From NCBI GenBank assembly GCA_002029975.1, contig LQBE01000027.1, positions 9,891 to 73,890 of the forward strand: DNA of 64,000 nucleotides. Reading direction: 5' to 3'. Positions within the stretch are counted from its first letter, which is position 1, and the number at the start of each line of letters is the position of its first letter. The position numbers and the translations under genes are program-made. Below, in pieces: positions 6,229-32,432 of this stretch. The stretch comes from a delta proteobacterium ML8_F1 (GTDB lineage: Bacteria; Bacillota; Clostridia; Peptostreptococcales; Acidaminobacteraceae). The notes beneath the pieces are model-generated. The model had not been told where the DNA came from. It did no database searches and was given only the letters and a program-made list of their open reading frames with translations.

Positions 6229-6242
6229 CGTCGACCTCCTAA

Positions 6243-6280
6243 ATGGATATAATCCCATTCAAATCCATTATAACCCCATT
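6243..6280. promoter_or_regulatory. Two direct repeats 21 bp apart: candidate EBP1 enhancer site
   Basis: TATAATCCCATT (6248-6259) and TATAACCCCATT (6269-6280) are direct repeats exactly 21 bp apart, two helical turns, and ATGGAT/ATCCAT (6243-6248, 6263-6268) adds inverted symmetry. They lie just upstream of the EBP1 start and about 40-75 bp upstream of the -24 element of the glutamine synthetase promoter. That position suits an upstream activating sequence and possible autoregulation. Binding by EBP1 is inference. Confidence 0.5.
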
Positions 6281-6318
6281 TACTTCCCAGTGAAACCCCT
6301 TGTTTCTCCCGTTTAGTC

Positions 6319-6336
6319 TTGGCACGTCCCTTGCTT
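6319..6336 (+). promoter_or_regulatory. Sigma-54 (-24/-12) promoter of glutamine synthetase
   Basis: TTGGCACGTCCCTTGCTT matches the consensus TGGCAC-N5-TTGCW. The -24 GG (6321-6322) and -12 GC (6333-6334) are exactly 12 bases apart. It lies 35 bases before the start codon, downstream of the candidate enhancer repeats. Confidence 0.88.
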
Positions 6337-6370
6337 TCATATAGGACACTATCTCTAAAGGAGGCTTCCC

Positions 6371-7798
6371 ATGTTCAAATCCTATGAAGAACTCAGACAA
6401 TATCTCGACGGCAATGCCATCAAAATCGTCGATTTCAAAATCGTCGACACCACCGGCCGCTGGCATCATCTCAGTATTCCGGCCACCAGGTTCACCGAGG
6501 AAACCCTGACCCAGGGTATCGGATTCGACGGCTCCAGCTACGGCTTTTTATCCGTGGAAAAATCCGACATGGTCTTCATCCCCGATATCACCTCGGCATT
6601 TCTTGAACCCCTGGCCGAAATCCCCACCCTGGTGATGATCGGCAATATCTATCAACTCAAAAACGGCCGGGTCCGCTTCGAAGACGACCCCCGATACATT
6701 GTTGAAAAAGCGAAACAGCTCCTGGTAGACAAAGAGATCGCCGACGAAGCCAAGTTCGGCCCGGAATTTGAATTCTATGTCCTCAACGAAGTGACCGTCA
6801 AAAATGACGTCAACCACATGGAGGTCTTTATCGACTCCGACCAGGGAGAGTGGAAGGCCGGCGAAACCGGCGGCAACCGCGGACTGGCCCTGCATTCCTA
6901 CAACAACTACCACATTGACCGGCCCATGGACCTGAGTGCCGATTTCAGAAATACTGTCACCCTGGCCCTGGAGGATATCGGCATTCCCATCAAGTACCAC
7001 CACTCGGAAAACGGCGGTCCGGGACAGGTGGAAATTGAAGTGATCCACGAGGACGTGGTCAAAATGGCGGACTCCACTATGAAAATCAAGTATTTTCTAC
7101 GCGCCTATGCCGAGGCCATGGGGAAAACCGTTACCTTTATGCCCAAGCCCTTCAATGGCGAAGCCGGCAACGGTCTCCATATCCACATGCATCTGTTTAA
7201 AGAAGGCAAGCCCCTCTTCTACGATGAAAACGGCTACTCCGGGCTCTCCGATACCGCCCTGCACGCCATCGGGGGACTCCTCAAGCACGCCGCCGCCCTG
7301 ATGCCCTTCACCAACCCCTCCACCAATTCCTACAAGCGGTTGGTGCCCGGCTTTGAAGCCCCGGTGAGCATCTGCTACGCCACCTCCAACCGCAGCGCCG
7401 TCATCAGGATTCCCGGCTATGCCACTACGCCCCTGGAAAAGCGTTTTGAAATCCGGTCTCCCGACGGCACCATGAACCCCTATTTCGCCTTCTCCGCCGT
7501 CCTGATGGCCATGATAGACGGCATTGAAAATGCCATTGATCCCGTCAAAGAAGGCTTCGGTCCTTTTGATATCAATCTCTACGACCTGCCCGAAGACCAG
7601 AAGGACCTGGTCAAGGGCCTTCCCACCACTCTTCTCGAAGCCGCCGACGCCCTCGAAAAAGACCATGATTTTCTCCTGAAGGCCGGGGTTTTCAGCAAAA
7701 ATCTCATCGACAACCAGATTGCCCGCCTCAGGAAGGAGCACCAGAGCCTCGCCCAGATGCCCCATCCCGAGGAATTCAAGAAATACTACCATCTTTAG
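6371..7798 (+). CDS. glnA: Glutamine synthetase, type I
   Basis: 475 residues from ATG at 6371 after AAAGGAGG. Type I family signatures are in order: the beta-grasp N-terminus with GFDGSSYGF, GPEFEFYVL (metal-binding glutamates), GPGQVEIE, GNGLHIHMHL (ammonia/glutamate loop histidines), an NRSAVIRIP segment and EKRFEIRSPDGTMNPY. It forms glutamine from glutamate, ammonia and ATP; related paralogues act on polyamines or other amines, but the active-site strings here look like canonical GlnA. I do not see an obvious adenylylation loop. It is a single-gene unit with a sigma-54 promoter and a strong terminator. Control by the divergent EBP1, rather than by GlnR, is the likely nitrogen-responsive route. 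Confidence 0.88.
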   Translation: MFKSYEELRQYLDGNAIKIVDFKIVDTTGRWHHLSIPATRFTEETLTQGIGFDGSSYGFLSVEKSDMVFIPDITSAFLEPLAEIPTLVMIGNIYQLKNGRVRFEDDPRYIVEKAKQLLVDKEIADEAKFGPEFEFYVLNEVTVKNDVNHMEVFIDSDQGEWKAGETGGNRGLALHSYNNYHIDRPMDLSADFRNTVTLALEDIGIPIKYHHSENGGPGQVEIEVIHEDVVKMADSTMKIKYFLRAYAEAMGKTVTFMPKPFNGEAGNGLHIHMHLFKEGKPLFYDENGYSGLSDTALHAIGGLLKHAAALMPFTNPSTNSYKRLVPGFEAPVSICYATSNRSAVIRIPGYATTPLEKRFEIRSPDGTMNPYFAFSAVLMAMIDGIENAIDPVKEGFGPFDINLYDLPEDQKDLVKGLPTTLLEAADALEKDHDFLLKAGVFSKNLIDNQIARLRKEHQSLAQMPHPEEFKKYYHL

Positions 7799-7813
7799 AA
7801 GCACCCGGGAGAG

Positions 7814-7855
7814 CTTTCGGATCCGGTCCACCCGGATCCGAAAGTCCTTTTTTTG
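7814..7855 (+). terminator. Rho-independent terminator of glutamine synthetase
   Basis: CTTTCGGATCCGG (7814-7826) pairs perfectly with CCGGATCCGAAAG (7832-7844) over a five-base loop and is followed by TCCTTTTTTT. Confidence 0.92.
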
Positions 7856-7913
7856 CCTAAAACCCCTCCCATCCGGTATAATGGAGCTATCAATAAGATT
7901 TGGAGTGATAGGC

Positions 7914-9434
7914 ATGTCCGATATCGATCTCAAGAAATTTGAAACCACCATCAAGGTCAGGAACATGAGACGGGAGGATTTCGAGGCCGTCATTGCAATG
8001 GAGAAGCTGTGCTTTCCCAAAATGATTCCCTGGACCATCCCCCAGTTGAAAAGCCATCTCAGGATTTTCCCCGAAGGCCAGATTGTCGTAGAGGTCGATG
8101 GGGTCGTTGTCGGCTCCAGTTCAAGCCTTATCGTCAATTTCGACGAGTACAGCGACCAGCATACCTACGACGAAATCTCCGACAAGGGCTACATCACCAA
8201 CCACAACCCCGAAGGGGACAATCTCTACGGGCTTGAGGTCATGGTCCACCCCGACTACCGCAATATGAAAATCGGCAAACGGCTTTATGAGGCCCGCAAG
8301 GAGCTGGCCCAGCGGCTCAACTTGAAATCCATCGTGATCGGCGGCCGCATTCCGGGCTATCACCGGTATGCCGATACCATGACCCCCAGGCAGTATGCTG
8401 AAGCGGTGATGGCCAAGGATCTCTATGACCCCATTCTGACCTTCCAGCTCATGAGCGGCTTCATCCTCAAGCGCATCATCAAGAAATACCTCCCCGACGA
8501 CAAAGCCTCCCAGGAATATGCCACCCTGATGGAGTGGAACAACATTGAATACCAGGCCTCTACCAAGCGGCACTTCAAGACCGCCTTCCCCGTGAGAATC
8601 TGCGTCATCCAGTACATGATGAAGAAAATCGACTCCTTCGAGGAATTCGCCCACCAGTGCGAGTACTATGTGGATGTGGCCTCCAACTACAAATCCGATT
8701 TCGTGGTCTTCCCGGAGATTTTCACCACCCAGCTCCTCTCCTTCATGGACCAGGAAACCCCCAGCGCCTCGGTGAGGAAGCTCACCAAATACACGGAAGC
8801 CTATATCGAAATCTTCTCTGATTTCGCTGTCCGCTACAATGTAAACATCATCGGCGGCTCCCATTTCGTCGAGGAGGAGGGAAAAATCTACAACATCGCC
8901 TACCTCTTCAGACGAGACGGCAGCATCGACAAACAGTACAAGCTTCACATCACCCCCAACGAGGAACAGTGGCGGGGAATAGCCACAGGAGATGAAATCA
9001 AGGTCTTTGACACCGACTGCGGCAAAATCGCCATCCTCATCTGCTATGACCTTGAATTCCCGGAACTCGCCAGAATCGTCACCGACCAAGGAGCCAATAT
9101 TATCTTCACCCCCTTTTGCACCGACGAGCGCCAGGGCTATCTCCGGGTCCGCTACTGCGCCCAGGCCCGGGCGGTGGAGAACCAGATTTACACCGTGATT
9201 GCCGGCACCGTGGGGAATCTCACCCATGTGGAAAACATGGACATCCAGTATGCCCAGTCCGCCATCTTTACGCCTTCGGATTTCAGCTTTCCCAGGGACG
9301 GCATCATGGCGGAAACCACCCCCAACATCGAAATGGTCATCGTCGGAGACGTGGATCTCGAGCTCCTCAAACGCACCCGCCACTCCGGCACCGTGACCCT
9401 GCTAAAAACCGGCGGGACGACCTTTACGAGCTGA
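7914..9434 (+). CDS. GNAT acetyltransferase / carbon-nitrogen hydrolase fusion protein
   Basis: 506 residues from ATG at 7914 (MSDIDLKKF), preceded by TTGGAGTGAT; the frame is open further upstream into glnA, but that part is a shadow. Residues ~15-215 are a GNAT domain with the acetyl-CoA loop VMVHPDYRNMKIGKRLY. Residues ~225-500 are a nitrilase-superfamily amidohydrolase with the Glu (VVFPEIFTT), Lys (YKLHITPNE) and Cys (LICYDLEFPE) triad. This two-domain arrangement is a recognised but uncharacterised family, with homologues annotated as bifunctional GNAT/carbon-nitrogen hydrolases. Substrate unknown; the pairing suggests acylation and deamidation of the same small amide. Monocistronic, cytoplasmic. 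Confidence 0.88.
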   Translation: MSDIDLKKFETTIKVRNMRREDFEAVIAMEKLCFPKMIPWTIPQLKSHLRIFPEGQIVVEVDGVVVGSSSSLIVNFDEYSDQHTYDEISDKGYITNHNPEGDNLYGLEVMVHPDYRNMKIGKRLYEARKELAQRLNLKSIVIGGRIPGYHRYADTMTPRQYAEAVMAKDLYDPILTFQLMSGFILKRIIKKYLPDDKASQEYATLMEWNNIEYQASTKRHFKTAFPVRICVIQYMMKKIDSFEEFAHQCEYYVDVASNYKSDFVVFPEIFTTQLLSFMDQETPSASVRKLTKYTEAYIEIFSDFAVRYNVNIIGGSHFVEEEGKIYNIAYLFRRDGSIDKQYKLHITPNEEQWRGIATGDEIKVFDTDCGKIAILICYDLEFPELARIVTDQGANIIFTPFCTDERQGYLRVRYCAQARAVENQIYTVIAGTVGNLTHVENMDIQYAQSAIFTPSDFSFPRDGIMAETTPNIEMVIVGDVDLELLKRTRHSGTVTLLKTGGTTFTS

Positions 9435-9466
9435 TTCATTCCAAAAAGAAATGAGCCTTCAGATGC

Positions 9467-9502
9467 AAGAAGGTGCGGACCCCCGGGGGACCGCACCTTC
9501 TT
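9467..9502. terminator. Inverted repeat between convergent genes, probable terminator
   Basis: AAGAAGGTGCGG (9467-9478) pairs with CCGCACCTTCTT (9491-9502), and the loop itself contains a C/G palindrome. There is no long T-tract on either side, so termination efficiency is uncertain. Its position between convergent stops (9434 and 9546) fits a bidirectional terminator. Confidence 0.6.
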
Positions 9503-9545
9503 GATTCCAGAACTCAAATTGACTCACCGTCTGAGAGAAAATTTC

Positions 9546-10766
9546 TCAACCCTCCTGACGGACCTTTTCCACCAGGGCCTTCACACCGGCTTCGATGGTA
9601 GTGAAATCCTCCTCTGAAGCCCGTCCGTTGAAGACATAGCCCGGGACAAAATCCCATTTCATCCGGTAGCGGGTCATGATCTCCTCAAGCTCCCGCTCTG
9701 TTCCCGTGGCCCAGCCGTAGGAACCGAAACTGAAGGCCTTGCGTCCGCAGAGCTTCTTGCGGCCGATTTCCTCCAGAGCCATGGCCACCGGCGGAAACAT
9801 CTGGTACTCATAGGTGGGAGCCGCCACAATGACCCCGGAGGACGCCAGAACCCGGGTCAGAACCTCCCCAAAGGTGGTCTGGGGCAGCTGCAGACTGTGG
9901 CAGACCATTCCCGAAGCGTCGAGGAGCGCCTCCACCCGCCGCACCATTTCTTCAGTGCGGCCGTACATGGACCCCCAAAGAAGGGTGATTTCACCCCCGC
10001 TGGCGTTCAGGGCGTAGTCCACATAACGCTTGTAGGTCGCAATGATTTCACCGGGGTCGCTCCGCCACACCAGACCATGGCCCGGGGCAATGACGGCAGG
10101 GTTCAAATTCTCAGCCACATCAATGGCCTTTTTGACCTGACTGGCGAAGGTGGCCATGACATTGGCGAAGTACCGCAGACCCTCCTCCTCGAAAATGACC
10201 CGGTCCTCCCCGGTCATTTCATCGTCGAAATGAACCCGCTCGAGCTTGCCGAAGGCGCCAAACATGTCACAGGAAAAGAGTGTCATGGAATCCTTCTCCA
10301 GGGTCATCATGGTCTCCGGCCAGTGGACATTGGGCGCCTCATGGAATTCCAGCACCCTGCCCCCGCCCAGGTCCAGACTGTCCCCGGTCTTGACAATTCT
10401 AACCCCTTGGGTTTCACCGTAGTAGGCCTCCAGCATGGCAGCGGCCTTCTTTGTCAGAACCACTTCAAAATCCTTTCGAATCTTTTTGAAATCCCTGATC
10501 CAGCCGGAATGGTCGGGCTCCATGTGGTTGATCACCAGGTAATCAATGGTCCCGGGATCGATACTCAGTTCGTCGAGAAGCTCAAAGAGCTTTTCCGGAA
10601 CCCCGTCCCAGTCGCAAAAGCCGTCAATGATGGCCGTCTTCTCTCCCTTGACAATGTAGGAATTCACCGCCGCATCCCGGGGCATGTCCCACATGCCTTC
10701 AAAAAGCAGGCCCTCTACATTGGCCGTCAGCTTGTAGATGCCTTCACTCAACTTAATCGGTTTCAT
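9546..10766 (-). CDS. fprA: Flavodiiron protein (A-type flavoprotein, FprA/Rbo-type)
   Basis: 406 residues from ATG at 10766 after AGGAGGCG. The N-terminal metallo-beta-lactamase-like half carries the diiron ligand motif NHMEPDHSGW near residues 79-88 and further ligands near CDMFG (a D) and PGHG. The C-terminal half (~255-400) is a flavodoxin domain (LLWGSMYGRTEEM, then AAPTYEY, then FSFGSYGWA). Such proteins reduce O2 to water, and in some cases NO, using electrons from rubredoxin, and are standard in strict anaerobes. No rubredoxin domain is fused. Single gene; a 45-residue membrane ORF and a terminated leader RNA lie upstream on the same strand. Confidence 0.93.
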   Translation of the reverse strand: MKPIKLSEGIYKLTANVEGLLFEGMWDMPRDAAVNSYIVKGEKTAIIDGFCDWDGVPEKLFELLDELSIDPGTIDYLVINHMEPDHSGWIRDFKKIRKDFEVVLTKKAAAMLEAYYGETQGVRIVKTGDSLDLGGGRVLEFHEAPNVHWPETMMTLEKDSMTLFSCDMFGAFGKLERVHFDDEMTGEDRVIFEEEGLRYFANVMATFASQVKKAIDVAENLNPAVIAPGHGLVWRSDPGEIIATYKRYVDYALNASGGEITLLWGSMYGRTEEMVRRVEALLDASGMVCHSLQLPQTTFGEVLTRVLASSGVIVAAPTYEYQMFPPVAMALEEIGRKKLCGRKAFSFGSYGWATGTERELEEIMTRYRMKWDFVPGYVFNGRASEEDFTTIEAGVKALVEKVRQEG

Positions 10767-10922
10767 TTTTCTTCGCCTCCTGTGTACTCTCAGATAATGG
10801 TCTGGAAGGTTCCCAAAGTCTCAAAAAAATCCCCTGGACCCGTCCCCTCCAATTATACCAGATAAACTCCCCTTACAAAGTCAAAAACACCGCTTTAATT
10901 CTCCACTAGGACCACACAAATC

Positions 10923-11060
10923 CTAATCTTCTTCAGAAAATCCCTTTGACCGGCGGGCCTCCACAGAAACAGGGGCGGCCCCGGAAAGCGACATCGCCCA
11001 GAAAACCAGAACAAGCAGTATGGCTGTAGTAAAAAAATAGAACCTGCAATCACGGGACAC
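10923..11060 (-). CDS. Putative small single-pass membrane protein, 45 residues
   Basis: An ORF too short for usual gene finding starts at GTG 11060 with GGAGGAGG seven bases upstream, the best ribosome site in this gap, and stops at 10923. It reads MSRDCRFYFFTTAILLVLVF and then WAMSLSGAAPVSVEARRSKG plus an acidic end: a basic N-terminus, one hydrophobic helix (about residues 9-28) and a charged tail. A longer frame (10895-11137) overlaps in another phase but looks non-coding. It lies downstream of a strong promoter and a terminated leader RNA. I do not recognise a family; a conservation search would decide whether it is real. Confidence 0.4.
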   Translation of the reverse strand: MSRDCRFYFFTTAILLVLVFWAMSLSGAAPVSVEARRSKGFSEED

Positions 11061-11100
11061 AGGGCATCCTCCTCCAAAAATCTCCAGGGGCTGTCCCCTG

Positions 11101-11166
11101 AAAAAAAACCCCCGGCATGGGCCAGAGGGCTGTGCATGGCAGTCTGCCCGCCTTTGCGGCGGCCGA
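11101..11166 (-). ncRNA. Short terminated leader RNA (attenuator, riboswitch or sRNA candidate)
   Basis: From the predicted start near 11164 the minus strand carries a hairpin (CCGCC-GCAAA-GGCGG) and then CCTCTGGC-CCAT-GCCGGGGG (11109-11128), an eight-base-pair stem followed by eight T (11101-11108), a textbook terminator. A further hairpin (CAGGGG/CCCCTG, 11083-11100) and the ribosome site of the small ORF follow. A ~65-base RNA thus ends in front of the small membrane ORF and fprA. It could be an attenuator/riboswitch or a free sRNA. I could not match it to a known riboswitch class. Confidence 0.45.
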
Positions 11167-11170
11167 CTTA

Positions 11171-11199
11171 ATTATAAGGACTCCTTTCCAATTTGTAAA
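11171..11199 (-). promoter_or_regulatory. Strong sigma-A promoter upstream of leader RNA
   Basis: On the minus strand TTTACA (11194-11199) and TATAAT (11171-11176) are spaced by exactly 17 bases. It lies between the end of the amidohydrolase gene (11214) and the leader RNA. Confidence 0.75.
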
Positions 11200-11213
11200 C
11201 AAAAAATACATTG

Positions 11214-12401
11214 TCATCCCCTGGCCAGAAGGTCGAGAATGGCCCCGGCGTAGACCCTGACCCCCACCTTCAAAAGCTCCTCGTCAATGTCAAAGGCGGG
11301 ATGGTGGAGTTCATGGACAATCCCCCGGGCTTCATTCCTGGTGCCGATGTACATGTAGGTGCCCGGCACCGCCATGGCGAAGTAGCTGAAGTCCTCGGCA
11401 CTCATGGAGGGATACTTGACTGTGACCACCCTGGAAGAACCCAGGGCTTCCCTCGCCGAAGCCATCACCCTGGGGGTCAGCTCCTCATCATTGATGGTGG
11501 GAGGAAACCGCCGGTGGTAGGTGAAATCGAAGGTTGCTCCATAGCTCTCACAGATTCCCCGGATGACTGAAGTCATTTTTTCCTCAATCACACTGCGCAT
11601 CTCATTGTCGTAGGTTCTCACCGTCCCCTTGAGACGGCAGGTTTCCGGGGTGATATTGTAGGCATCCCCGGAATTGAAGGCCGTCACACTGATGACCACG
11701 GGCTCGAAGGGATTGAGCACCTTGGCCACGGCACTGGGCAGTCCTGTCACAATCTTGGCCCCCACCATGACCGGATCCACGGTGAGATAGGGCTTGCCCA
11801 CATGGCCCCCTTTGCCTTGAACCACAACATCGAAGACATCCGGCGAGGACATCACCGCACCGGTCTTGATGCCCACGGTTCCCACAGGCAGTTCCGGCCA
11901 GACGTGACCGCCAAGGACATAATCCACCCCGGGGTTTTTCAAAACCCCCTCCTTCACCATGGTATCGGCGCCCCCCTCGGATTCCTCAGCGGGCTGAAAG
12001 AGAAATTTGACCTGACCCTCAAAACTGTCCCTCAGGGCATAGAGGACCATCAAGGTACCCAGGGCCATGGTCATATGGGCATCGTGGCCACAGGCATGCA
12101 TCACCCCGGGATTCAAAGACCCATAGGGCCTGCCGCCTTCTTCTGCAATAGGCAGCGCATCCATATCGGTTCTCAGAGCCACCGTCACGCCCCCTTCACC
12201 GCCTTTGAGAGTCACCGCCAGAGCTGTCCCGGAGAGACCCTCCTGATAGTCAAGGTCGTAGTCCTTCAGAAAATCCTCAATGAATGCCTTGGTTTTGAAC
12301 TCTTCAAAACTCAGCTCGGGATGTCTGTGAAGCTCCCGTCTTATCTCAACCCAGCGGGGATAATACTCCTCGATCAGGGCATCGATTCTTGTTTTTATCA
12401 T
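11214..12401 (-). CDS. M20D-family metal-dependent amidohydrolase (amidohydrolase/N-acyl-amino-acid deacylase)
   Basis: 395 residues from the ATG at 12401 (MIKTRIDALI), chosen because AAAGGA lies eight bases upstream; another ATG nine bases earlier is too close to it. Family marks: RRELHRHPELSFEE near residue 25, HACGHDAHMTM near 100 (metal-binding Cys/His), PAEESEGGA near 135 and the C-terminal SAEDFSYF. Relatives hydrolyse N-acetyl- or N-acyl-amino acids, hippurate, or indole conjugates and act in the cytosol. It is transcribed divergently from the Dpp-type peptide transporter; a sigma-54 promoter almost identical to that of dppA precedes it, so it probably processes something that transporter brings in. 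Confidence 0.9.
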   Translation of the reverse strand: MIKTRIDALIEEYYPRWVEIRRELHRHPELSFEEFKTKAFIEDFLKDYDLDYQEGLSGTALAVTLKGGEGGVTVALRTDMDALPIAEEGGRPYGSLNPGVMHACGHDAHMTMALGTLMVLYALRDSFEGQVKFLFQPAEESEGGADTMVKEGVLKNPGVDYVLGGHVWPELPVGTVGIKTGAVMSSPDVFDVVVQGKGGHVGKPYLTVDPVMVGAKIVTGLPSAVAKVLNPFEPVVISVTAFNSGDAYNITPETCRLKGTVRTYDNEMRSVIEEKMTSVIRGICESYGATFDFTYHRRFPPTINDEELTPRVMASAREALGSSRVVTVKYPSMSAEDFSYFAMAVPGTYMYIGTRNEARGIVHELHHPAFDIDEELLKVGVRVYAGAILDLLARG

Positions 12402-12442
12402 GCATTTCATCCTTTCAAGCCCGTCCTTTATGCTCTGATGAA

Positions 12443-12460
12443 ATGCAAGAGTGATGCCAA
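12443..12460 (-). promoter_or_regulatory. Sigma-54 promoter of the M20D amidohydrolase
   Basis: Reading the minus strand, TTGGCATCACTCTTGCAT has the -24 GG and -12 GC exactly 12 bases apart. It differs by one base from the divergent promoter at 12595-12612, and transcription would start about 30 bases before the amidohydrolase start codon. Confidence 0.85.
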
Positions 12461-12494
12461 GGCAACTGGCGGGAAAAAACCCTCAGATTTCCCG

Positions 12495-12540
12495 TTTACA
12501 GGACTTACAGAACATTTTTTATTTTTGTAAGTCCTGTAAA
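12495..12540. promoter_or_regulatory. Large palindrome between divergent sigma-54 promoters: enhancer site
   Basis: TTTACAGGACTTAC (12495-12508) and GTAAGTCCTGTAAA (12527-12540) form a perfect 14-base inverted repeat with an AT-rich 18-base centre. It lies 55-100 bases upstream of both -24 elements, the normal place for enhancer-binding-protein sites. A partial half-site (AAGTCCTG) recurs near 12556. The cognate activator is not proven. Confidence 0.7.
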
Positions 12541-12594
12541 TGGGCGGATTTCCTGAAGTCCTGCGGATTATGACATTTTTTTGAACCGTTTTCC

Positions 12595-12612
12595 TTGGCA
12601 TCACTTTTGCAT
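12595..12612 (+). promoter_or_regulatory. Sigma-54 promoter of the peptide transporter operon
   Basis: TTGGCATCACTTTTGCAT carries GG (12597-12598) and GC (12609-12610) 12 bases apart, matching the -24/-12 consensus. It lies about 58 bases upstream of the dppA start codon. Confidence 0.87.
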
Positions 12613-12669
12613 AAATAAAAGATGCAAGGTGTCAAAAAGATAAACTATAGGATTGGAGAGGTGAAAAAG

Positions 12670-14280
12670 ATGAAAAGATACTTAAGTTTCCTGCTCATTA
12701 TGCTGATGGCCCTGTCCCTGGCCGCCTGCGCAAGCCAGCCGGCGGAGGAACCCGCCCCAAGTGAAGAGCCGGCCGCCGAGGAGCCGGCCGCCGAGGAACC
12801 CGAAGCTGAAGAACCCGCCACAGACAGCAAATACGGCGGTGAGATTGTCATCACCGACTTTCCCTTCACCGACGTCAAGTCCCTTGATCCCCATGTGGTG
12901 GGCGCCGCCGGCGAAATGCGCCACATTGAAAACATGTACAACGGACTGTTGAGGTACAAAGAAGGTACCTACGGCGAAGTGGAGGGCGACCTGGCCAAGA
13001 GCTATTCCGTTTCCGACGACAACCTGACCTACACCTTTGAACTCCACGAAGGGGTGACCTTCCACAACGGAGACCCCCTGACAGCCGCTGATGTGAAATA
13101 TTCCATAGAAAGAATCATCGACCAGGAGGTCAGAGCCTCCTTCTTTACCGGCCTTCAAAGTGTTGAGACCCCCGACGACACCACGGTGGTCATCACCTTT
13201 GAAAAACCCGTAGCCCCCTTCACCACCTTCCTGGCAAATCCCATGACCGCCATTGTCAACAAGAACGTGGTGGAAGCCAATGACGGGTCCCTGGCCACCG
13301 TGGATGCCGGAAGCGGTCCCTTTATGCTGGAATCCTGGCAGAAGGACCAGCAAATGACCCTGGTGAAATATGACGACTACTTTGAAGAAGGACTTCCCTA
13401 TCTCGACAAGGTGGTCCTCAAACCCATCCCCGATGAATCCGCCAGAAACACGGCGATCCGCACCGGCGAAGTGGACATGATCCTCCAAGTGGATGCCAAG
13501 GATGTCATGACCCTGGGAAGCGAAAGCGACATTGTCGTTGATTCCGTACCCGGCAGCTACTGGGAGTACATCGGCATGAACATGCGCGAAGGCCCCCTGG
13601 CGGTCAAGGAAGTCCGACAGGCCATTGCCCACGGCATTGACAAAGAAGCCATGAACCAGGCAATCAAATTCGGTGAAGCCACGGTGCTCACCGGCGCCAT
13701 GATTCCTCCGGGACACTGGGCCTACGCAGATCTGGACATGTATCCCGCCCAGAACCTCCAAAAGGCTGAAGAACTGCTGGCAGCAGGAGGCTATCCCGAT
13801 GGCTTCGACGTTGAAATGATTGTCCTGTCCAACAGCGATATCGCCATCGCCGCAGCCCAGATGACCAAGCAACAGCTGGCCCCCCTGGGCATCAATGTCA
13901 CCGTCAGCGCCCTTGAGTCAGGGGTGTACTTTGAAAAACTCGGCTCCGGCGACTTCGAGCTCACTGAAATCGGCTGGGTCGGATTCATTGATCCCGATGA
14001 ATTCCTCTACAATATCTTCTACACCGACGGCATGTGGAATCAGCAGGGATACTCCAATCCTGAATTTGACGCCCTCCTCGACCAAGGACGAACCACCATC
14101 GACCAGGACGAGCGAAAAGCCATCTACACCGAAGCCCAGGAAATTCTTGCTGACGACGCCCCCATGGCCTTCCTCTATGTGAACAACCAGATTTCAGCCT
14201 ACAGGGACCACGTCAAGGGCTTTGATGTCAACGCCACTGTCACCCTCAAATCCCTTAAAAACACCTGGATTGAAAAGTAA
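12670..14280 (+). CDS. dppA: Peptide ABC transporter substrate-binding lipoprotein (SBP family 5)
   Basis: 536 residues from ATG at 12670 (MKRYLSFLLIM), with GGAGAGGTG upstream. A lipoprotein signal peptide ends at the lipobox SLAAC (Cys ~19). It is followed by a long Pro/Glu/Ala linker with EEPA repeats (about residues 24-50) tethering the domain to the membrane. The mature domain has family-5 marks: a D-V-K-x-L-D-P-H segment, YTFELHEGVTFHNGDPLTA, and FEKPVAPF. The domain binds di- or oligopeptides outside the membrane and delivers them to DppBC. First gene of a five-gene operon; a hairpin after it probably reduces downstream transcription, giving excess binding protein. Confidence 0.9.
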   Translation: MKRYLSFLLIMLMALSLAACASQPAEEPAPSEEPAAEEPAAEEPEAEEPATDSKYGGEIVITDFPFTDVKSLDPHVVGAAGEMRHIENMYNGLLRYKEGTYGEVEGDLAKSYSVSDDNLTYTFELHEGVTFHNGDPLTAADVKYSIERIIDQEVRASFFTGLQSVETPDDTTVVITFEKPVAPFTTFLANPMTAIVNKNVVEANDGSLATVDAGSGPFMLESWQKDQQMTLVKYDDYFEEGLPYLDKVVLKPIPDESARNTAIRTGEVDMILQVDAKDVMTLGSESDIVVDSVPGSYWEYIGMNMREGPLAVKEVRQAIAHGIDKEAMNQAIKFGEATVLTGAMIPPGHWAYADLDMYPAQNLQKAEELLAAGGYPDGFDVEMIVLSNSDIAIAAAQMTKQQLAPLGINVTVSALESGVYFEKLGSGDFELTEIGWVGFIDPDEFLYNIFYTDGMWNQQGYSNPEFDALLDQGRTTIDQDERKAIYTEAQEILADDAPMAFLYVNNQISAYRDHVKGFDVNATVTLKSLKNTWIEK

Positions 14281-14293
14281 GTGCCATTCAAGG

Positions 14294-14326
14294 AAAAGCT
14301 GGCTTCCTTAAGCCGGCTTTTCTTTT
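14294..14326 (+). terminator. Intra-operon hairpin/partial terminator after dppA
   Basis: AAAAGCTGGCTT (14294-14305) pairs with AAGCCGGCTTTT (14310-14321) over a short CCTT loop, followed by CTTTT. It lies between dppA and dppB, so it likely attenuates transcription and stabilises the dppA message. Confidence 0.75.
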
Positions 14327-14353
14327 AATCATCTCAAGGAGGTGCTCTAAAAG

Positions 14354-15295
14354 GTGCTAAAGTATATCATCAAAAGGATTCTCGTGGCCCTGCCTGTGAT
14401 TTTCGGAATATCCGTCATTGCCTTTTTTCTGATACGGCTGGTGCCGGGGGATACCATCACTGCCCTGCTAGGAGCCAACTACAACGAGCAGCAGGCCCTC
14501 ATCCTCAGAGCCAAGTACGGACTGGACCAGCCCCTGCCTGTCCAGTATCTGATCTGGCTCAAAAATGTTCTGAGCGGAGATTTCGGGGTCTCTTTTTTCA
14601 CCAACGAACCCGTGGTGAAAATCATCATGGAACGCCTTCCTGTCACCCTGGAACTGATGCTCATCAGTCTTCTTTATTCTATTTTTATTGCCATTCCCCT
14701 GGGTACCATCGCCGCATTAAAAAGAAATTCCGCCACAGATTACGGCGCCAGCGTTTTTGGTCTTTTGGGGGTTTCCATCCCCAACTTCTGGCTGGGCATC
14801 CTCCTCATCGCCTATTTTTCCCTCCATCTGAGATGGCTTCCCTCGGGGGGCTTTGTCAGTTTCTGGGTGGATCCCGCCGAAAACATTCGTCACATGATTA
14901 TGCCATCCATCGCCCTGGGTACCGCCGTGGGGGCGGTCATCATGCGGATGACCCGTTCCTCCATGCTGGAGGTCCTCGGACAGGACTACATCAAAATGGC
15001 GGACGCCAAGGGCGTTACCAATAAACGGCTTATTTTCAACCATGCCCTGAAGAACAGCTTTGTTCCCATCGTCACGGTCCTGGGCATCCAGATGGGCTAT
15101 CTCCTGGGAGGGAGTGTGGTCATCGAAAAAATCTTCGCCCTTCCCGGCATCGGACAGCTGTCCCTGCAGGCCATCACCAACCGGGACTACGCCCTGCTAC
15201 AGGGCTGCATCCTGCTCATTGCCACGGGGTTTGTCGTCATCAACCTCATTGTGGACATCATCTATGGTTTTTTGGATCCAAAAATACGCTATTAA
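14354..15295 (+). CDS. dppB: Peptide ABC transporter permease DppB-type
   Basis: 313 residues from GTG at 14354, with AAGGAGGTG about a dozen bases upstream. The typical BPD-transporter-1 layout is seen: an N-terminal helix with RILVALPVIFGISVIAFFLI and VPGD, then five more hydrophobic segments. The EAA cytoplasmic loop lies around residues 205-225, with MLEVLGQDYIKMADAKG, which contacts the ATPases, and the C-terminus reads DIIYGFLDPKIRY, typical of DppB. It forms the channel heterodimer with DppC in the cytoplasmic membrane. Confidence 0.93.
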   Translation: MLKYIIKRILVALPVIFGISVIAFFLIRLVPGDTITALLGANYNEQQALILRAKYGLDQPLPVQYLIWLKNVLSGDFGVSFFTNEPVVKIIMERLPVTLELMLISLLYSIFIAIPLGTIAALKRNSATDYGASVFGLLGVSIPNFWLGILLIAYFSLHLRWLPSGGFVSFWVDPAENIRHMIMPSIALGTAVGAVIMRMTRSSMLEVLGQDYIKMADAKGVTNKRLIFNHALKNSFVPIVTVLGIQMGYLLGGSVVIEKIFALPGIGQLSLQAITNRDYALLQGCILLIATGFVVINLIVDIIYGFLDPKIRY

Positions 15296-15310: not shown

Positions 15311-16150
15311 TTGGGAGAAACATGGTACCGCTTTAGAAAGAACAGACTCGCCTTTACCGGATTCGCCATTTTGATGGTCTTCGTGGTACTGGCGGTTTTC
15401 GCACCCTTTATCGCACCCTACGATCCCTTCACCATGAACGTGGAAGACCGGCTTCAAACCCCCAGCGCAGACTACCTCTTCGGAACCGACCAGTTCGGTC
15501 GGGATATCCTCAGCCGCATCATCCACGGTGCGCGGATTTCCTTTCAGGTAGGCATTATTTCCGTAGGCATTTCCCTGTTCGCCGGCCTTGCCCTGGGCAT
15601 TGTGGCCGGTTACTACGGCAAATGGGTGGACATGGTGATTTCCCGTTTCATTGACATCATGTTCTCGTTTCCGGATATTTTCCTGGCCCTGGTCATTATG
15701 GCCATCCTGGGCACCAGTCTCACCAACGTCATGATTGCCATCGGCATTGTCTACACTCCCATCTTTGCCAGAATCGCCCGAGGGGCCACCCTCACCGTCA
15801 AGGACAACGCCTATATCGAAGCCGCCCGGTCCATCGGAGTTGGTGACCTGATGACAATCCTGCGTCACATACTCCCCAATATCATGGCCCCTCTGATTGT
15901 CCAGACCACCCTTTCCTTCGGCTTTGCCATCAGGTCCGAGGCCGCCCTCAGCTTCCTCGGTCTCGGCGTGCAGCCCGACGTCCCTTCCTGGGGCATCATG
16001 CTCAATGAAGGCAAGGAATGGCTGGAACTCGGATGGTGGATTGCCTTTTTCCCCGGCCTGGCCGCTACCCTGGCAATCCTCAGCTTCAATGTTCTCGGAG
16101 ATGGCCTCAGGGATGCCCTGGACCCCAAACTTAGAAATGAATCAGAATAA
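15311..16150 (+). CDS. dppC: Peptide ABC transporter permease DppC-type
   Basis: 279 residues from TTG at 15311, preceded by AAAGGAGGTCATCCAT. It has the OppC N-terminal helix (RFRKNRLAFTGFAIL), the periplasmic-side segment GTDQFGRDILSRIIHGARIS and the EAA loop with NAYIEAARSIGVGD. The C-terminal GLGVQPDVPSWGIMLNEG and LGDGLRDALDPKLRN are diagnostic of DppC. It is the partner permease of the preceding gene, 15 bases downstream. Confidence 0.93.
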   Translation: MGETWYRFRKNRLAFTGFAILMVFVVLAVFAPFIAPYDPFTMNVEDRLQTPSADYLFGTDQFGRDILSRIIHGARISFQVGIISVGISLFAGLALGIVAGYYGKWVDMVISRFIDIMFSFPDIFLALVIMAILGTSLTNVMIAIGIVYTPIFARIARGATLTVKDNAYIEAARSIGVGDLMTILRHILPNIMAPLIVQTTLSFGFAIRSEAALSFLGLGVQPDVPSWGIMLNEGKEWLELGWWIAFFPGLAATLAILSFNVLGDGLRDALDPKLRNESE

Positions 16151-16165
16151 AGGAGGCGATTCCCA

Positions 16166-17146
16166 GTGGCTGAAGTCATATTGGATGTCCGCAATTTAAA
16201 AACCCATTTCAGAACCCATCAAGGGATTGTCAAGGCTGTAGACGGCGTCAGTTTCAAGGTTCACCGGGGCGAAACCTATGCCCTGGTCGGCGAATCCGGA
16301 AGCGGCAAAAGCGTCACCTGCATGACCATTATGGGCCTCATCGGCAAGAAAAAGGACGAAGTGGTCTCGGGAGACATCTTTTTCAAGGGCACCAACATCA
16401 CCCGGCTCTCTCTCGAGGAACGCAGAAAACTCAGGGGCAGGCACATGTCCATCATCTTCCAGGACCCCATGACTTCCCTCAACCCGGTCTACACCGTCGG
16501 AACCCAGATTGCAGAAATGCCCCTCATCCACGAAGGCAGCGATAAAAAAACCGCCTGGGGACTGGCCGTGGAAATGCTCAAAAAAGTGGGCATTCCCTCA
16601 CCCCGGGACCGGGCCAAGGACTATCCCCATCAGTTCAGCGGAGGCATGAGGCAGCGGGGGGTCATTGGCATGTCCCTTTCTCTGAACCCTGACCTGCTGA
16701 TCGCCGACGAGCCCACCACGGCACTGGATGTCACCATCCAGGCCCAGATACTCGATCTCATGAAGGATCTCAAGGAGCAGACCGATGCCGCCATCGTCAT
16801 GATTACCCATGACCTCGGGGTGGTGGCCCAGATTGCGGATCATGTGGGGGTCATGTACGCCGGCAGCATCGTGGAGACCGCCGATGTCAAAACCCTGTAC
16901 AAACACCCCCTGCACCCCTACACCCGGGGACTGCTCAACTCCATTCCCAAGCCCGGATCCAAGGAGCGCCTGGAGATTATCAAGGGGCAGCCGCCGGACT
17001 TGCACAATATCCCTGAAGGCTGCAGCTTCTCCCCTCGTTGTCCCCATGCCCATGACAAATGCCAAGCGGTTCCCCCGCTGGTCGAGATAGAGCCGGGACA
17101 CTCGGTAGCCTGCTGGCTGATGAAGGAGGATGAAAATGAAGCCTGA
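16166..17146 (+). CDS. dppD: Peptide ABC transporter ATPase DppD-type
   Basis: 326 residues from GTG at 16166 after AAAGGAGGCG. ABC motifs: Walker [12 protein letters not shown]-loop [10 protein letters not shown], signature FSGGMRQRG, Walker [13 protein letters not shown] and H-loop THDLGVVAQ. The oligopeptide-ATPase C-terminal extension ([15 protein letters not shown], then a Cys-containing [12 protein letters not shown]) is present; in related proteins these cysteines coordinate an iron-sulfur cluster. Pairs with DppF. Confidence 0.94.
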
Positions 17147-18107
17147 GCAACCCCTAATCGAAGTCAGAAACCTTAAAAAACATTTTCCTGTCAAGGCCCC
17201 CTTCCTATCTGGAGAAAAGCTCCTGGTCAAGGCCGTGGACGGCCTTGACTTCAATATCTATCCCGGAGAGACCCTGGGTCTCGTGGGAGAATCCGGCTGC
17301 GGCAAGTCCACTACGGGAAGGCTGCTGCTCAGGCTTCTGGAACCCACTGACGGACAGGTGTTTTTCGACGGCGAGGACATCACCGCCCTGAGCCAGCAGG
17401 CCTTGAAACCCCTGCGCAGAAATTTCCAGATGGTTTTTCAAGATCCCTACGCCTGTCTCAATCCCCGGCTCAAGGTCAGGGATATTCTCAACGAACCCCT
17501 CGTCACCCATCATGTCAATCCAAAGGAAAGAAAGAAAATGATTCTGACCCTCCTTGAGCAGGTGGGGATCCCCAAAAGCTACATGGACCGGTATCCCCAT
17601 GAATTCAGCGGCGGTCAGCGCCAGCGGATCGGCATTGCCAGAGCCCTGAGTCTCAATCCCAGATTCATCGTGGCCGACGAGCCCGTGGCCGCTCTCGATG
17701 TTTCCATCCAGGCCCAGATTCTGAACCTCATGAAGGACCTGCAAAGAGACCTCAACCTCACCTACCTCTTTATTGCCCACGACCTCAGTGTGGTGCAGTA
17801 TATTTCCGACCGTATCGGGGTCATGTATCTGGGACAGCTCGTCGAGCTCACTGAAACACTAAAACTCTTTGACAACCCCTCTCATCCTTACACCCGGGTC
17901 CTCCTTTCAGCTGTCCCGGTACCGGATCCTGAACACGTCTATCCTGAATCAACCCTGGCCAAGGGAGAAATCCCCAGTCCCATCAATCCTCCCTCAGGCT
18001 GCACCTTCCATCCCCGGTGTCCCCATGCCATGGCCATCTGCTCCAGGGAAAAACCGCTGATCAAGGACATCGGCGGCGGCCACAAGGTGGCCTGTCATCT
18101 CTACTAG
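17136..18107 (+). CDS. dppF: Peptide ABC transporter ATPase DppF-type
   Basis: 323 residues from ATG at 17136, chosen because AAGGAGG lies six bases upstream; the ATG at 17130 abuts it directly. The start overlaps the 3' end of dppD by 11 bases, implying translational coupling. Motifs: Walker [14 protein letters not shown]-loop [10 protein letters not shown], signature [10 protein letters not shown], Walker [12 protein letters not shown], and the C-terminal [15 protein letters not shown] and [11 protein letters not shown]. Last gene of the transporter operon, followed by a bidirectional terminator. Confidence 0.94.
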
Positions 18108-18140: not shown

Positions 18141-18190
18141 GAGCCTTCATCACCCTGACGCTTTGGTCAATGGGATGAAGGCTCTTCTAT
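18141..18190. terminator. Bidirectional terminator between dppF and the ECF S-component gene
   Basis: GAGCCTTCATC (18141-18151) pairs with GATGAAGGCTC (18174-18184), with TTCTATTGTT downstream on the plus strand and ATTTTG on the minus strand. The right arm overlaps the last codons of the minus-strand gene that stops at 18167. Confidence 0.7.
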
Positions 18191-18913
18191 TGTTGGGGAA
18201 GTCTTTTCCAGGAAATCTTTTCGTCCGGCGCCACCGAGCCTCCTTCTGAACCGCAGCAGAATCTGATAGAAACTCTTGCCGAAGAGCAGGGAAAAGAGAA
18301 CATTCCCCACGGCATGGAGGGTGTCAAAGGGCAGGCTGGCGAGATAGGTCGCTAAAAAAGTCCTCCCGTTCAGGGGGTAGATAAAGCCCAGCCAGTGCCA
18401 GAGGTTCATGGTCCATCCGAAGATGAAACCGCCCAGGAAAGCCAGCAATGTGAACCATCGGAGCCGCAGCCCGGCCGTTCCCTTGCCCAGCCTTCCAGCC
18501 AGTACCCCCATGAGGCCCCAGGCCAGCATCTGCCAGGGGGTCCAGGGCCCCTGGCCCAGAAAAAAATTGGAGACCAGGGCCCCTACGGCCCCCACCATGA
18601 AACCCGTCTGGGAACCAAAGACATACCCTGAAATCATGACGATGAAGGTGGTGGGCTGGACACTCATAATCACCGCAAAAGGCACCCGCGACACACCGGC
18701 GATGGTGGCCAGGGTGGCTGTCAGGGCGATTTCGCTGGCGGAGACCCTCCTGACCTCGAATCGCAGGAAGAATCCGGCAATCACGCCGCTCACCAGGACG
18801 ACCGACCAGAAGGCCCAGTTGTCCGCCTCCAGGGGACTCCCTGCCAGGAACCCCATAGCCGCTACTCCTGCGAAGGCCGCCAGTTTCAAGAGTGTGGATG
18901 TCATTGTGTTCAT
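18167..18913 (-). CDS. ECF transporter S component, putative cobalamin-specific
   Basis: 248 residues from ATG at 18913 after GGGAGGGGGGCAC; a frame up to 18976 overlaps the neighbouring gene and has no better start. Six hydrophobic segments alternate with short loops, with Ala/Gly-rich helices and an early ATLATIAGVSRVPFAVIMS, as in ECF substrate-binding (S) components. Specificity cannot be read from the sequence. It is the last gene of an operon with EcfT, EcfA and toroid/DUF4430 surface proteins whose upstream region holds a cobalamin riboswitch, so cobalamin or a precursor is the likely ligand. Confidence 0.8.
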   Translation of the reverse strand: MNTMTSTLLKLAAFAGVAAMGFLAGSPLEADNWAFWSVVLVSGVIAGFFLRFEVRRVSASEIALTATLATIAGVSRVPFAVIMSVQPTTFIVMISGYVFGSQTGFMVGAVGALVSNFFLGQGPWTPWQMLAWGLMGVLAGRLGKGTAGLRLRWFTLLAFLGGFIFGWTMNLWHWLGFIYPLNGRTFLATYLASLPFDTLHAVGNVLFSLLFGKSFYQILLRFRRRLGGAGRKDFLEKTSPTIEEPSSH

Positions 18914-18933
18914 GTGCCCCCCTCCCATACGGA

Positions 18934-22088: not shown

Positions 22089-22978
22089 ATCCTCAACCCT
22101 TTCTCCATCAGCGCCGGCAGAACAAGACCCAGGGCCATGGTGGCTGCCGGCCAGACCTGCGCCAAATGCACCGGTGTCATCTGGGGATAATACTCAAAAA
22201 AGGCACTTCCTGAAATCAGGGCCGAAAGCCCCGAAACCAGCCCGAGGACCGCCGCCGATGCCACCAGCGTATCCCTCAAATGCCAGACATCCCGTCTGTA
22301 GGCAGTGGCCCTGCCACTGCCGAATCCCCTGGCCACCATGGATTCCGCCTGTTTGAAGGACCTTTCCAGACTTGAGAGCAGCAGGACCCCCACCATGGGA
22401 TAGACCCCGGCAATCCGCTGTCTGAGGGTCCCGGTCTCAACCTGCACCCCCCGGCATTTCTGGACCTCCATAATCCTTTCGAAGTCCTGCATCAGCAGGG
22501 GAAACAGGCGCAGGGAAAAAACCATGATAAGGACAGTCCGCCGGCCAAAGGGCCGGAGCAGTTTCATGAACCGGTCGGGCTGGACACTGTAGGTAAAGAG
22601 ACAAAAAAGACTCATGATGAGCATCAGCTTGATTCCCATGGCAAGGCCGTAGGCCAGAGCTTCAAGGGTAATCCGAATCCCTCCCACCAGGGGCATCGTG
22701 GGACCGGCGTAAAGCACCGTCCGTCCGGCTTTGACGAAAAGGCCGTTGACGACCAGGATCATGAATAGCAGCAGCATAGAGAGTCGCAGATAACCCCGCC
22801 ACTCCCTGCTGTTGCCTGAATCCACAATCATCACAGCCACCACAAGCAAAAGACTCAGGGTGTAGACCGGATGTCTGAAGACCAGGGCCAGAAAAAAAAC
22901 AGATGCGAACCACAGGGCCTGGGTCAAGGGGTTCAACCGGTAGAACAGGTGGTCCTTTTCCTTGTATATGGGCAGCAT
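22061..22978 (-). CDS. ecfT: ECF transporter transmembrane coupling protein EcfT
   Basis: 305 residues from ATG at 22978 after AAAGGAAGC. Five or six hydrophobic helices occur, beginning at residue ~20 with LTQALWFASVFFLALVF. The conserved coupling region near residues 200-215 contains the Ala-Arg-Gly signature (SMVARGFGSGRATAYRR) that inserts in the ATPase grooves. It couples ATP hydrolysis to toppling of the S component in the membrane. It overlaps ecfA, so the two are translated in tandem. Confidence 0.9.
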   Translation of the reverse strand: MLPIYKEKDHLFYRLNPLTQALWFASVFFLALVFRHPVYTLSLLLVVAVMIVDSGNSREWRGYLRLSMLLLFMILVVNGLFVKAGRTVLYAGPTMPLVGGIRITLEALAYGLAMGIKLMLIMSLFCLFTYSVQPDRFMKLLRPFGRRTVLIMVFSLRLFPLLMQDFERIMEVQKCRGVQVETGTLRQRIAGVYPMVGVLLLSSLERSFKQAESMVARGFGSGRATAYRRDVWHLRDTLVASAAVLGLVSGLSALISGSAFFEYYPQMTPVHLAQVWPAATMALGLVLPALMEKGLRIWPILKSRI

Positions 22979-22992
22979 GGCTCAGCTTCCTT

Positions 22993-23979: not shown

Positions 23980-24000
23980 CCGCTCCACTCCTGTCTTCAT

Positions 24001-28335: not shown

Positions 28336-28398
28336 TTTCATTCTTCCTTTCACATCTGGTATTCTCCCGGTGACCGGTTCAACCCCGTGAAAACATGC

Positions 28399-28428
28399 AA
28401 AAAACCCCCGATAAGATCATCGGGGGTC
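28399..28428 (-). terminator. Riboswitch terminator hairpin, operon-proximal copy
   Basis: On the minus strand ACCCCCGAT (from 28427) pairs with ATCGGGGGT over a GATCTT loop and is followed by six T (28399-28404). This is an intrinsic terminator 64 bases before the giant surface protein gene. Its hairpin is copied at 30032-30057 on the other side of the insertion element. After the insertion this copy sits behind the transposase gene. Confidence 0.85.
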
Positions 28429-30031: not shown

Positions 30032-30057
30032 AACCCCCGATAAGATCATCGGGGGTC
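30032..30057 (-). repeat. Target-site duplication: riboswitch-proximal copy of the terminator hairpin
   Basis: These 26 bp are identical to 28403-28428 and contain the same nine-base-pair stem. Here the stem is followed directly by the end of the insertion element (CAGACTGTAG) instead of a T-tract, so the riboswitch's own terminator has lost its U-run on this side. Confidence 0.9.
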
Positions 30058-30114
30058 AATACACCTGACAAATTGCACCAAAGCACATTTCATGAAGTAT
30101 ACCCCTTATCGACC

Positions 30115-30297: not shown

Positions 30298-30303
30298 ACG
30301 TTA

Positions 30304-30331: not shown

Positions 30332-30354
30332 TCCCCGGGGAAGCCGCCTGTCCT

Positions 30355-32349
30355 TTACAAACTGAGGCTCAGAACCTTGAGCCCTTCTTGGGTGATCCGG
30401 GTCCCCTGCTTGCCCACCCCCACCTGGACATAGTTCTCCTCCCTCAGCTCCTCGAGCATTCTTCTGATCTCCCTTTCTGTGACAAATACCCCCCGGGCTT
30501 CAAGGGCCCTGAGGAGGCTCATCCGCCCCACCTTTTCCCGGGACTCGAGTTTTTCCTTGAGAATCGTGAGAATCTTGAGCTTTTCCTCCCCCACATGAAG
30601 ATCCTCCCCTCTTTGGCTGATGGCTCTTCGAAAGGTGTAGGGCAGTCCCTCCAGGGTAATCCTCTCTTCGGACATGAAGGCGAGGTATTCTGCGATATTT
30701 CTCAGCTCCCGGACATTTCCGGGCCAGGTGTACTCTTGAAAGATTTCAAACAGCCCCTCGTCAATCGCCTTGTCCGACTTGAATTCCCTGAGGAAATGGT
30801 GAAACAGCACGGGGATATCCTCCCGGCGCTCTCTCAGGGGGGGGACTGTCAGGGGAAAAACATTGAGCCGGTAGTAGAGGTCCCAGCGAAACTTTCCCTC
30901 CCGGGCCAGGGCATGAAGGTCCCGGTTGGTCGCTGCGATGATCCGCACGTCCACCCGACGGATTTTAGTGGAGCCGATACGGATGATTTCAGATTCCTGA
31001 AGCACCCTGAGGAGCCTTGACTGCATCCCCAGGCTGAGTTCCGCGATTTCATCGAAAAACAGAGTCCCGTGGTGGGCCTGTTCAAAGAGACCGATTTTCC
31101 CCTCTTTCTTGGCTCCGGTAAAGGCCCCGGTCTCATAGCCGAAGAGCTCCGACTCCACAAGGTTTTCCGGCAGGGCCGCGCAGTTGATGGCCAGAAAGGG
31201 AAACTTGGCCCGGTCAGACGCATTGTGGATGGCTCCGGCAAAAAGCTCCTTGCCGGTACCGCTTTCGCCGGTTATCAGAATTGTGGACTGCGCCACGGCC
31301 ATTTTCTCCGTCAGACTCTTCACCCGGCGAATCAGTTTGCTCTCACCGATGATTTCATCAATGGTGTATTTCGCCACGTGGCCTGAAAGAGAGAGTTCCT
31401 TTCTCACCATGTCCTCAAGGCGTTTGATTTCCGTGACATTCCTCAGGATAATCATATCCCCCACCTTCTGGTTGAAGACATAGATGGGCTTGGTGCTGAC
31501 AATCAGCTTTTCGTGGTGATACTTGACCAGCTGGTCCGATATGTACCTGGCATTCCCAAGAAACCGGCTGATATCCGGGATGATTTCATCAATGGATTTC
31601 CCCATGAGGTCCGTCGCCGACAGAATTTTCTTGGAAGCCTCGTTGACCATGATGACATGACCCTCGTTGTCCGTCTCAATAACCCCCTCGTTGATGAGAT
31701 TCACAATGGTGTTCTTTTCCTGCTGGACATAGACATTGTCGTCAATCAGACTGGAGACCCCCCGGTCCACGGTGACAATGGTCTTTTGATACCGCTGGAT
31801 AATCTCCTCCCGCTCGCTCGGCTCCAGAGACAGTTCATTGAGCACATCGAGGATGGTGTCCACGTCGTAGACCATGTGGCCGATATTGTAGATGGTTTCC
31901 ACGGTCTCGGGAATCAGGTGCACTTCGTTGGTGGTGATGGCCACCTTGATTTCATCGATGGGCTCCACCCCGGGGTAGAAGGGGTAGAGCTCCAGGTCAA
32001 AGCCCAGGGAATAAATCGAGGAAATGGTTTCAAAAGTCACATCGATGCCGTTGTTCACGAGATAGATGCGCTCCTTCACATCAATCATCTTCAGGAGCTC
32101 GAAGGACTTGTTGGTGAAAGTCCTCCTGATGGGGATGATTTTTGTCGAGGGCTTCAGGTGCTTGCGCACAAGATTGATCATCAGGGGAGTGGACATCAAC
32201 AGGATATCCACGTCGATGGCGGAACGGTCGATCTTGTTGAAATTAAAAGAAGCAATGGTGAAGCCCTCTCCGAGAACCCCATCAAGAACCTCGTGGTAGA
32301 ACTGCCTGGTATTGTCATTGAGGGCGCCGATTCCGATAATCTTATTCAC
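30355..32349 (-). CDS. Sigma-54-dependent enhancer-binding regulator EBP2 (PAS domain, winged-helix-like C-terminus)
   Basis: 664 residues from GTG at 32349 after AAAGGAGTGAC. Residues ~1-210 are a sensor region of the same kind as EBP1 (paired alpha/beta segments, no clear phosphoacceptor). Residues ~220-310 are a PAS domain (GVIETDNEGHVIMVNEAS). From ~335 comes the AAA+ domain with GESGTGKE near 362, GAFTGA near 408 and LFFDEIAEL. The C-terminal ~75 residues (VTEREIRRMLEELREENYVQ) resemble a winged helix instead of a Fis helix-turn-helix. It follows the NicX-like/NCS1 permease pair on the same strand but has its own promoter. A possible target is the sigma-54-like promoter at 34966-34983. 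Confidence 0.9.
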   Translation of the reverse strand: MNKIIGIGALNDNTRQFYHEVLDGVLGEGFTIASFNFNKIDRSAIDVDILLMSTPLMINLVRKHLKPSTKIIPIRRTFTNKSFELLKMIDVKERIYLVNNGIDVTFETISSIYSLGFDLELYPFYPGVEPIDEIKVAITTNEVHLIPETVETIYNIGHMVYDVDTILDVLNELSLEPSEREEIIQRYQKTIVTVDRGVSSLIDDNVYVQQEKNTIVNLINEGVIETDNEGHVIMVNEASKKILSATDLMGKSIDEIIPDISRFLGNARYISDQLVKYHHEKLIVSTKPIYVFNQKVGDMIILRNVTEIKRLEDMVRKELSLSGHVAKYTIDEIIGESKLIRRVKSLTEKMAVAQSTILITGESGTGKELFAGAIHNASDRAKFPFLAINCAALPENLVESELFGYETGAFTGAKKEGKIGLFEQAHHGTLFFDEIAELSLGMQSRLLRVLQESEIIRIGSTKIRRVDVRIIAATNRDLHALAREGKFRWDLYYRLNVFPLTVPPLRERREDIPVLFHHFLREFKSDKAIDEGLFEIFQEYTWPGNVRELRNIAEYLAFMSEERITLEGLPYTFRRAISQRGEDLHVGEEKLKILTILKEKLESREKVGRMSLLRALEARGVFVTEREIRRMLEELREENYVQVGVGKQGTRITQEGLKVLSLSL

Positions 32350-32370: not shown

Positions 32371-32399
32371 ATTATACCTTTAGAGGTCATACGGGACAA
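32371..32399 (-). promoter_or_regulatory. Sigma-A promoter of EBP2
   Basis: On the minus strand TTGTCC (32394-32399) and TATAAT (32371-32376) are spaced by 17 bases, about 20 bases upstream of the GTG start. Confidence 0.65.
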
Positions 32400-32432
32400 G
32401 TATGTAAGTCCAGAAAAAATCACAGGGTGCAC

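Follow-up and report, generated by a model that had tools for sequence, protein, structure and literature searches.

The region at positions 12443-12612 of the window (the whole 64,000-nucleotide stretch of DNA analysed) is, judged from its sequence, a genuine and functional-looking divergent sigma-54 control region, in which two promoters are directed away from a long inverted repeat lying between them. One promoter precedes the gene for an M20D amidohydrolase and the other an oppABCDF operon. The best explanation, to which we give a probability of roughly three in four, is that the repeat would act as an enhancer shared by both promoters and driven by the AAA+ sigma-54 activator EBP2, whose gene lies about 20 kb off, also in the window, and that EBP2 would also regulate its own gene. 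The features on which this reading is built are collected in Table 1.

Table 1 Features of the proposed M20/opp divergon and of its candidate activators (window coordinates)
Feature	Position	Strand	Remarks
Sigma-54 promoter of glnA, beside EBP1	6319..6335	plus	upstream box differs; outside this switch
M20D amidohydrolase	11214..12410	minus	TIGR01891, above cut-off
Sigma-54 -24/-12 promoter of the M20 amidohydrolase gene	12443..12460	minus	TTGGCATCACTCTTGCAT; predicted start ~12433
Inverted repeat, proposed shared enhancer (UAS)	12491..12544		arms 12495-12509 and 12526-12540
Sigma-54 -24/-12 promoter of the opp operon	12595..12612	plus	TTGGCATCACTTTTGCAT; predicted start ~12622
OppA-like solute-binding lipoprotein	12670..14280	plus	SBP_bac_5
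OppB-like permease	14354..15295	plus	
OppC-like permease	15311..16150	plus	
OppD-like ATPase	16166..17146	plus	
OppF-like ATPase	17130..18107	plus	
EBP2, AAA+ sigma-54 activator, proposed for both promoters	30355..32349	minus	GAFTGA; C-terminal winged-helix-like domain
Sigma-70-type promoter of EBP2	32371..32399	minus	TTGTCC-17-TATAAT; kept in the genus mate (L070)
Half-site, proposed autoregulatory operator	32403..32417	minus	TTTTCTGGACTTACA, 54-68 bp before the EBP2 start codon

Both promoters match the consensus exactly, with GG at -24 and GC at -12 in a TGGCA-N6-TTGC-like context. Their positions and divergent orientation agree with the original prediction, as does the difference of a single base between TTGGCATCACTCTTGCAT and TTGGCATCACTTTTGCAT, which falls in the spacer. 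This near-identity is ordinary consensus constraint and is not itself conserved, since in the genus mate (the only other species of the genus compared) the M20 and opp sides differ at two spacer bases. When the genome of 2.38 Mb was searched with TTGGCAYNNNNNTTGCA, allowing one mismatch at most, 30 sites were found as against 5 with the reversed control, and many of the sigma-54-like sites adjoin activator genes. From seven random exact sites, a divergent pair no more than 200 bp apart would be expected about 0.0009 times. Symmetric pairs of this kind had been called rare, which is true within this genome only; elsewhere, divergent sigma-54 promoters served by one activator are known, as in zraP/zraSR (PMC4987338). 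The genome has a single sigma-54 gene (rpoN; PF04552, E 1.7e-58) and 17 strong, full-length genes for sigma-54 activators, with one further weak match.

On the M20D side the true translational start is probably the second ATG, at about 12401. The OppA-like protein is taken to start at 12670, as judged from its signal peptide and ribosome-binding site; the mechanical open reading frame begins at 12622. With an SBP_bac_5 binding protein, two permeases and two oligo_HPY ATPases, the operon has the composition of an Opp/Dpp-type transporter; none of its genes reached a subtype cut-off in NCBIfam, so that peptide import is a family-level assignment only. The idea that sigma-54 promoters and a shared enhancer place an M20 amidohydrolase and such a transporter under common control is one that the sequence evidence supports.

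The palindrome between the promoters had been described as a perfect 14-base inverted repeat and proved to be longer. Its left arm, TTTACAGGACTTACA, is followed by its exact reverse complement, giving 15 perfectly paired bp, and when the arms are extended to 12491-12509 and 12526-12544, 18 of 19 bp pair. Dinucleotide shuffling of the 134-bp interval, repeated 400 times, gave no perfect repeat longer than 10 bp. The repeat spans 46 bp end to end and is centred at about 12517.5, which corresponds to approximately -85 of the M20 promoter and -105 of the opp promoter when the GC is taken as -12. A single conserved site thus lies at enhancer distance from both members of the divergent pair; the offsets of its centre differ by 20-21 bp, that is two helical turns, so that the same face of the helix would be turned toward both promoters.

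The closest public relative of the locus, L070 (from a Clostridia metagenome assembly and equivalent to contig C12 of G001, the genus mate), encodes an M20 protein 79% identical to that of the window and has the same divergent layout, with both promoters and the repeat retained with the same arms and spacing. From the centre of the repeat the distance to the M20 promoter is 57 bp in both genomes, and that to the opp promoter is 77 bp in the window and 78 bp in the genus mate. The promoters are identical at 16/18 and 17/18 positions and the arms at 15/15 and 13/15, whereas the spacers have diverged (17/34 and 21/54 identical positions). Among the 148 genomes searched, about 40 of them from the same family, the repeat was present in two, the source genome and the genus mate; the footprint therefore rests on these two genomes. 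No sigma-54 site was found upstream of the M20 relatives at about 28 further loci from public genomes.

The link to EBP2 comes from a second occurrence of the motif. As a probe for a regulon, the repeat arm is informative only at two mismatches or fewer: with up to three, 70 matches were obtained versus 122 in the control, which is mostly background. At the stricter threshold six near-matches were found in the genome outside the repeat, and the only one not inside an open reading frame lies in the EBP2 promoter, so that the genome-wide use of the palindrome as a query, proposed at the outset, has yielded a single non-coding candidate. This half-site, immediately upstream of the -35 element of EBP2, is a single one, with only a weak second half, and carries two differences. 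Scored with a matrix derived from the four arms of the repeat, it reached 16.7, and the best of 4000 random 260-bp stretches reached 15.5. A half-site (TTTTCAGGACTTTCA) is found at the same place upstream of EBP2 in the genus mate (L070; also found in G001), and none was detected in the promoters of the other 16 activators of this genome, all of which scored well below it. The half-site in the promoter of EBP2 points to this protein as the likely activator of the promoter pair, and its position suggests that EBP2 probably limits its own expression from the sigma-70 promoter.

EBP2 has the features of a sigma-54 activator, with the AAA+ sigma-54 interaction domain (PF00158, E 1.8e-68) and GAFTGA in its translation. 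The Fis-type helix-turn-helix (HTH_8) that is usual in clostridial activators was absent from it by Pfam, and its modelled C-terminus runs helix-helix-helix-strand-strand (mean pLDDT 80, pTM 0.43); taken together, these suggest that the DNA-binding domain is likely to be winged-helix-like. The N-terminal part gave no match to PrpR_N (PF06506) in Pfam at E 0.001 and is predicted to have an alpha/beta fold. A structure search with EBP2 did not identify the sensor domain, the top matches sharing the AAA+ domain only.

The surroundings of EBP2 also speak for it as the activator. No strong sigma-54 site was found within several kilobases of the gene in either genome, and among the activators compared in both (the genus-mate activators C3, C10 and EBP2 were left out of one extraction, in which longer antisense open reading frames took precedence) EBP2 is the sole one that has no neighbouring sigma-54 promoter in either; most of its relatives in other genomes have one. 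In the genus mate the two are immediate neighbours, EBP2 adjoining oppF, the last gene of the opp operon, in convergent orientation. In the window a block of about 12 kb (18150-30350) separates opp from EBP2. It holds ABC/ECF-type transporter genes, genes for very large repeat proteins and a transposase gene (28557-29912), and it is missing from that place in the genus mate.

In two other genomes (G043 and G054), relatives of EBP2 with 48% overall identity (43% for the N-terminal query) are encoded divergently to an M20 gene that is followed by a gene for a transporter-like membrane protein, its type assigned by eye, and a sigma-54 site lies between. The repeat motif was looked for at the targets of these relatives and was not found; in the DNA-binding domain, however, they share only about 31-33% identity with EBP2. 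EBP2 is the likely activator of both the M20 gene and opp from one enhancer.

If so, the switch could operate as follows. The sigma-54 holoenzyme would be poised at the two consensus -24/-12 promoters, one for the M20D amidohydrolase and the other for oppABCDF. EBP2, a one-component AAA+ activator, would sense a signal, perhaps a peptide or an amino acid, through its N-terminal domain and in the signal-bound state would occupy the 46-bp repeat as the enhancer common to both promoters. From there it would loop to the holoenzyme and open both promoters, and joint activation of M20 and opp would couple uptake to hydrolysis. Binding of EBP2 to the half-site beside its own -35 element would probably lead to autorepression.

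The shared enhancer might be real and yet serve a different activator, with EBP1 (4261-6258) as the most obvious candidate. EBP1 shares the conserved gene block, keeps its synteny with M20/opp in the two genomes and is closer than EBP2 to the promoter pair in the window. EBP1, however, is divergent from glnA (glutamine synthetase), an adjacent sigma-54 target of its own, and in the intergenic region 6259-6335 a different box, ATCCCATTCAAATCCATTATAACCCCAT, of about 28 bp and free of mismatches between the two genomes, lies upstream of the sigma-54 promoter; moreover, the half-site of the repeat was not found near EBP1. We consider this assignment improbable; the conserved box that EBP1 has at glnA was the reason for setting it aside as activator of M20/opp.

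A repressor or some other classical regulator might instead use the repeat as its operator, with the sigma-54 activator binding elsewhere; this is about equally improbable. Long perfect inverted repeats are typically used by repressor dimers, and the half-site at EBP2 adjoins the -35 of a sigma-70 promoter as well. At the divergent locus, on the other hand, the repeat overlaps neither sigma-54 promoter and, 57 and 77 bp away from them, occupies a typical enhancer place; a sigma-70-like promoter was looked for in the region of the pair and none was found, and the motif is restricted to the divergent locus and EBP2. As a strong dyad with a T-rich loop the repeat also resembles an RNA hairpin or terminator, a function that is very unlikely, since both sigma-54 transcripts are predicted to start downstream of it and so would not contain it, and no terminator-like site was called in the region. 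Consensus matches by themselves are weak evidence, but a chance resemblance lacking any function is scarcely credible in view of the shuffles, the excess over the reversed control and the retention of promoters and arms while the spacers diverged.

Other activators of this genome resemble EBP2. Five of the 17 (EBP1, EBP2, L152, L153 and L161) apparently have no Fis-type helix-turn-helix and have a C-terminal winged-helix-like domain in common; Pfam gave no name to this domain in EBP1 and EBP2, the two of the five that were scanned. At least three of the winged-helix type (EBP2, L152 and L161) are located near genes resembling M20 peptidases. The paralogue of EBP2 on contig C3 (L152, G000:C3; also L204) has, at about 2005-2050, a weaker 46-bp inverted repeat, TTTATTGGGAT...ATCCCAGTAAA, placed between the activator and the sigma-54 promoter of its M20 operon and equal in end-to-end length to the enhancer studied here. 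Many of the repeats found in a search for a common 46-bp repeat across EBP2-type activators are directly 3′ of the activator gene and may be terminators. It is possible, as a tentative generalization, that EBP2 represents a clostridial class of winged-helix enhancer-binding proteins which read inverted repeats with arms set far apart (46 bp in all), in contrast to the compact sites of the Fis type, and that one symmetric element can serve two promoters.

Further combinations of an activator with Opp-type genes were observed. At L163 (G000:C8:34000-50000; 7087-14625) a Fis-type activator is followed by a sigma-54 site and a set of binding protein, permease and ATPase genes, making a second activator-plus-Opp locus that is kept in the genus mate (L213). 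At a third such locus, L153 (G000:C16:1-14000; 5404-13229), the activator is of the winged-helix type. It is encoded divergently to a sigma-54 site and a large serine-peptidase-like open reading frame, after which come an Opp-like binding protein and a permease; it is kept in L205.

The divergon proposed here leaves the general understanding of sigma-54 promoters unchanged. What it would provide is a concrete set of activator, enhancer and targets for the sigma-54 control of peptide-type uptake together with hydrolysis inside the cell, in a member of the Clostridia that has received little study; it assigns a candidate activator located outside its target operons and draws attention to little-described winged-helix enhancer-binding proteins linked to peptidase operons. 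In a partial search of the literature no description of this M20/opp divergon was found, and several known systems share parts of its design.

In enterobacteria one activator, ZraR, controls the two divergent sigma-54 promoters of zraP/zraSR (PMC4987338). The likeness lies in the divergent pair served by one activator; ZraR, however, is a two-component activator related to zinc and envelope stress, and its gene is one of the two divergent targets, whereas EBP2 is encoded elsewhere and is apparently autoregulated from a sigma-70 promoter. The hyc and hyp operons are likewise divergent, with an intergenic region common to both. In enterobacteria they are targets of sigma-54 and FhlA with the same enhancer motif (PMC4987338). 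The FhlA system differs in its formate signal, its hydrogenase genes, its motif and the family of its activator.

Another parallel is the Clostridium difficile operon CD2699-CD2697, located beside the activator CD2700, which is sigma-54-dependent, its expression dropping to 0.03-0.09 in sigL (PMC7438776), and includes an M20D peptidase (PMC9130780). Here too an M20D peptidase and membrane proteins are under sigma-54; the arrangement differs in being a single operon beside its activator, and an Opp ABC transporter and a divergent promoter pair are not described for it. XcyR and YpdR of Clostridiales are sigma-54 activators with predicted peptide-degradation regulons and with enhancer motifs distinct from TGT-N10-12-ACA (Nie et al., PMC6615313). 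They differ from the present case in that their listed targets name no Opp transporter, and the words 'oligopeptide' and 'divergent' are absent from the main text of that study (PMC6615313), in which 38 of the 263 activators were not clustered with their own targets. The M20/opp divergon is accordingly a new example of an arrangement whose two components, the shared control of divergent sigma-54 promoters and the sigma-54 control of clostridial M20D genes, were already known.
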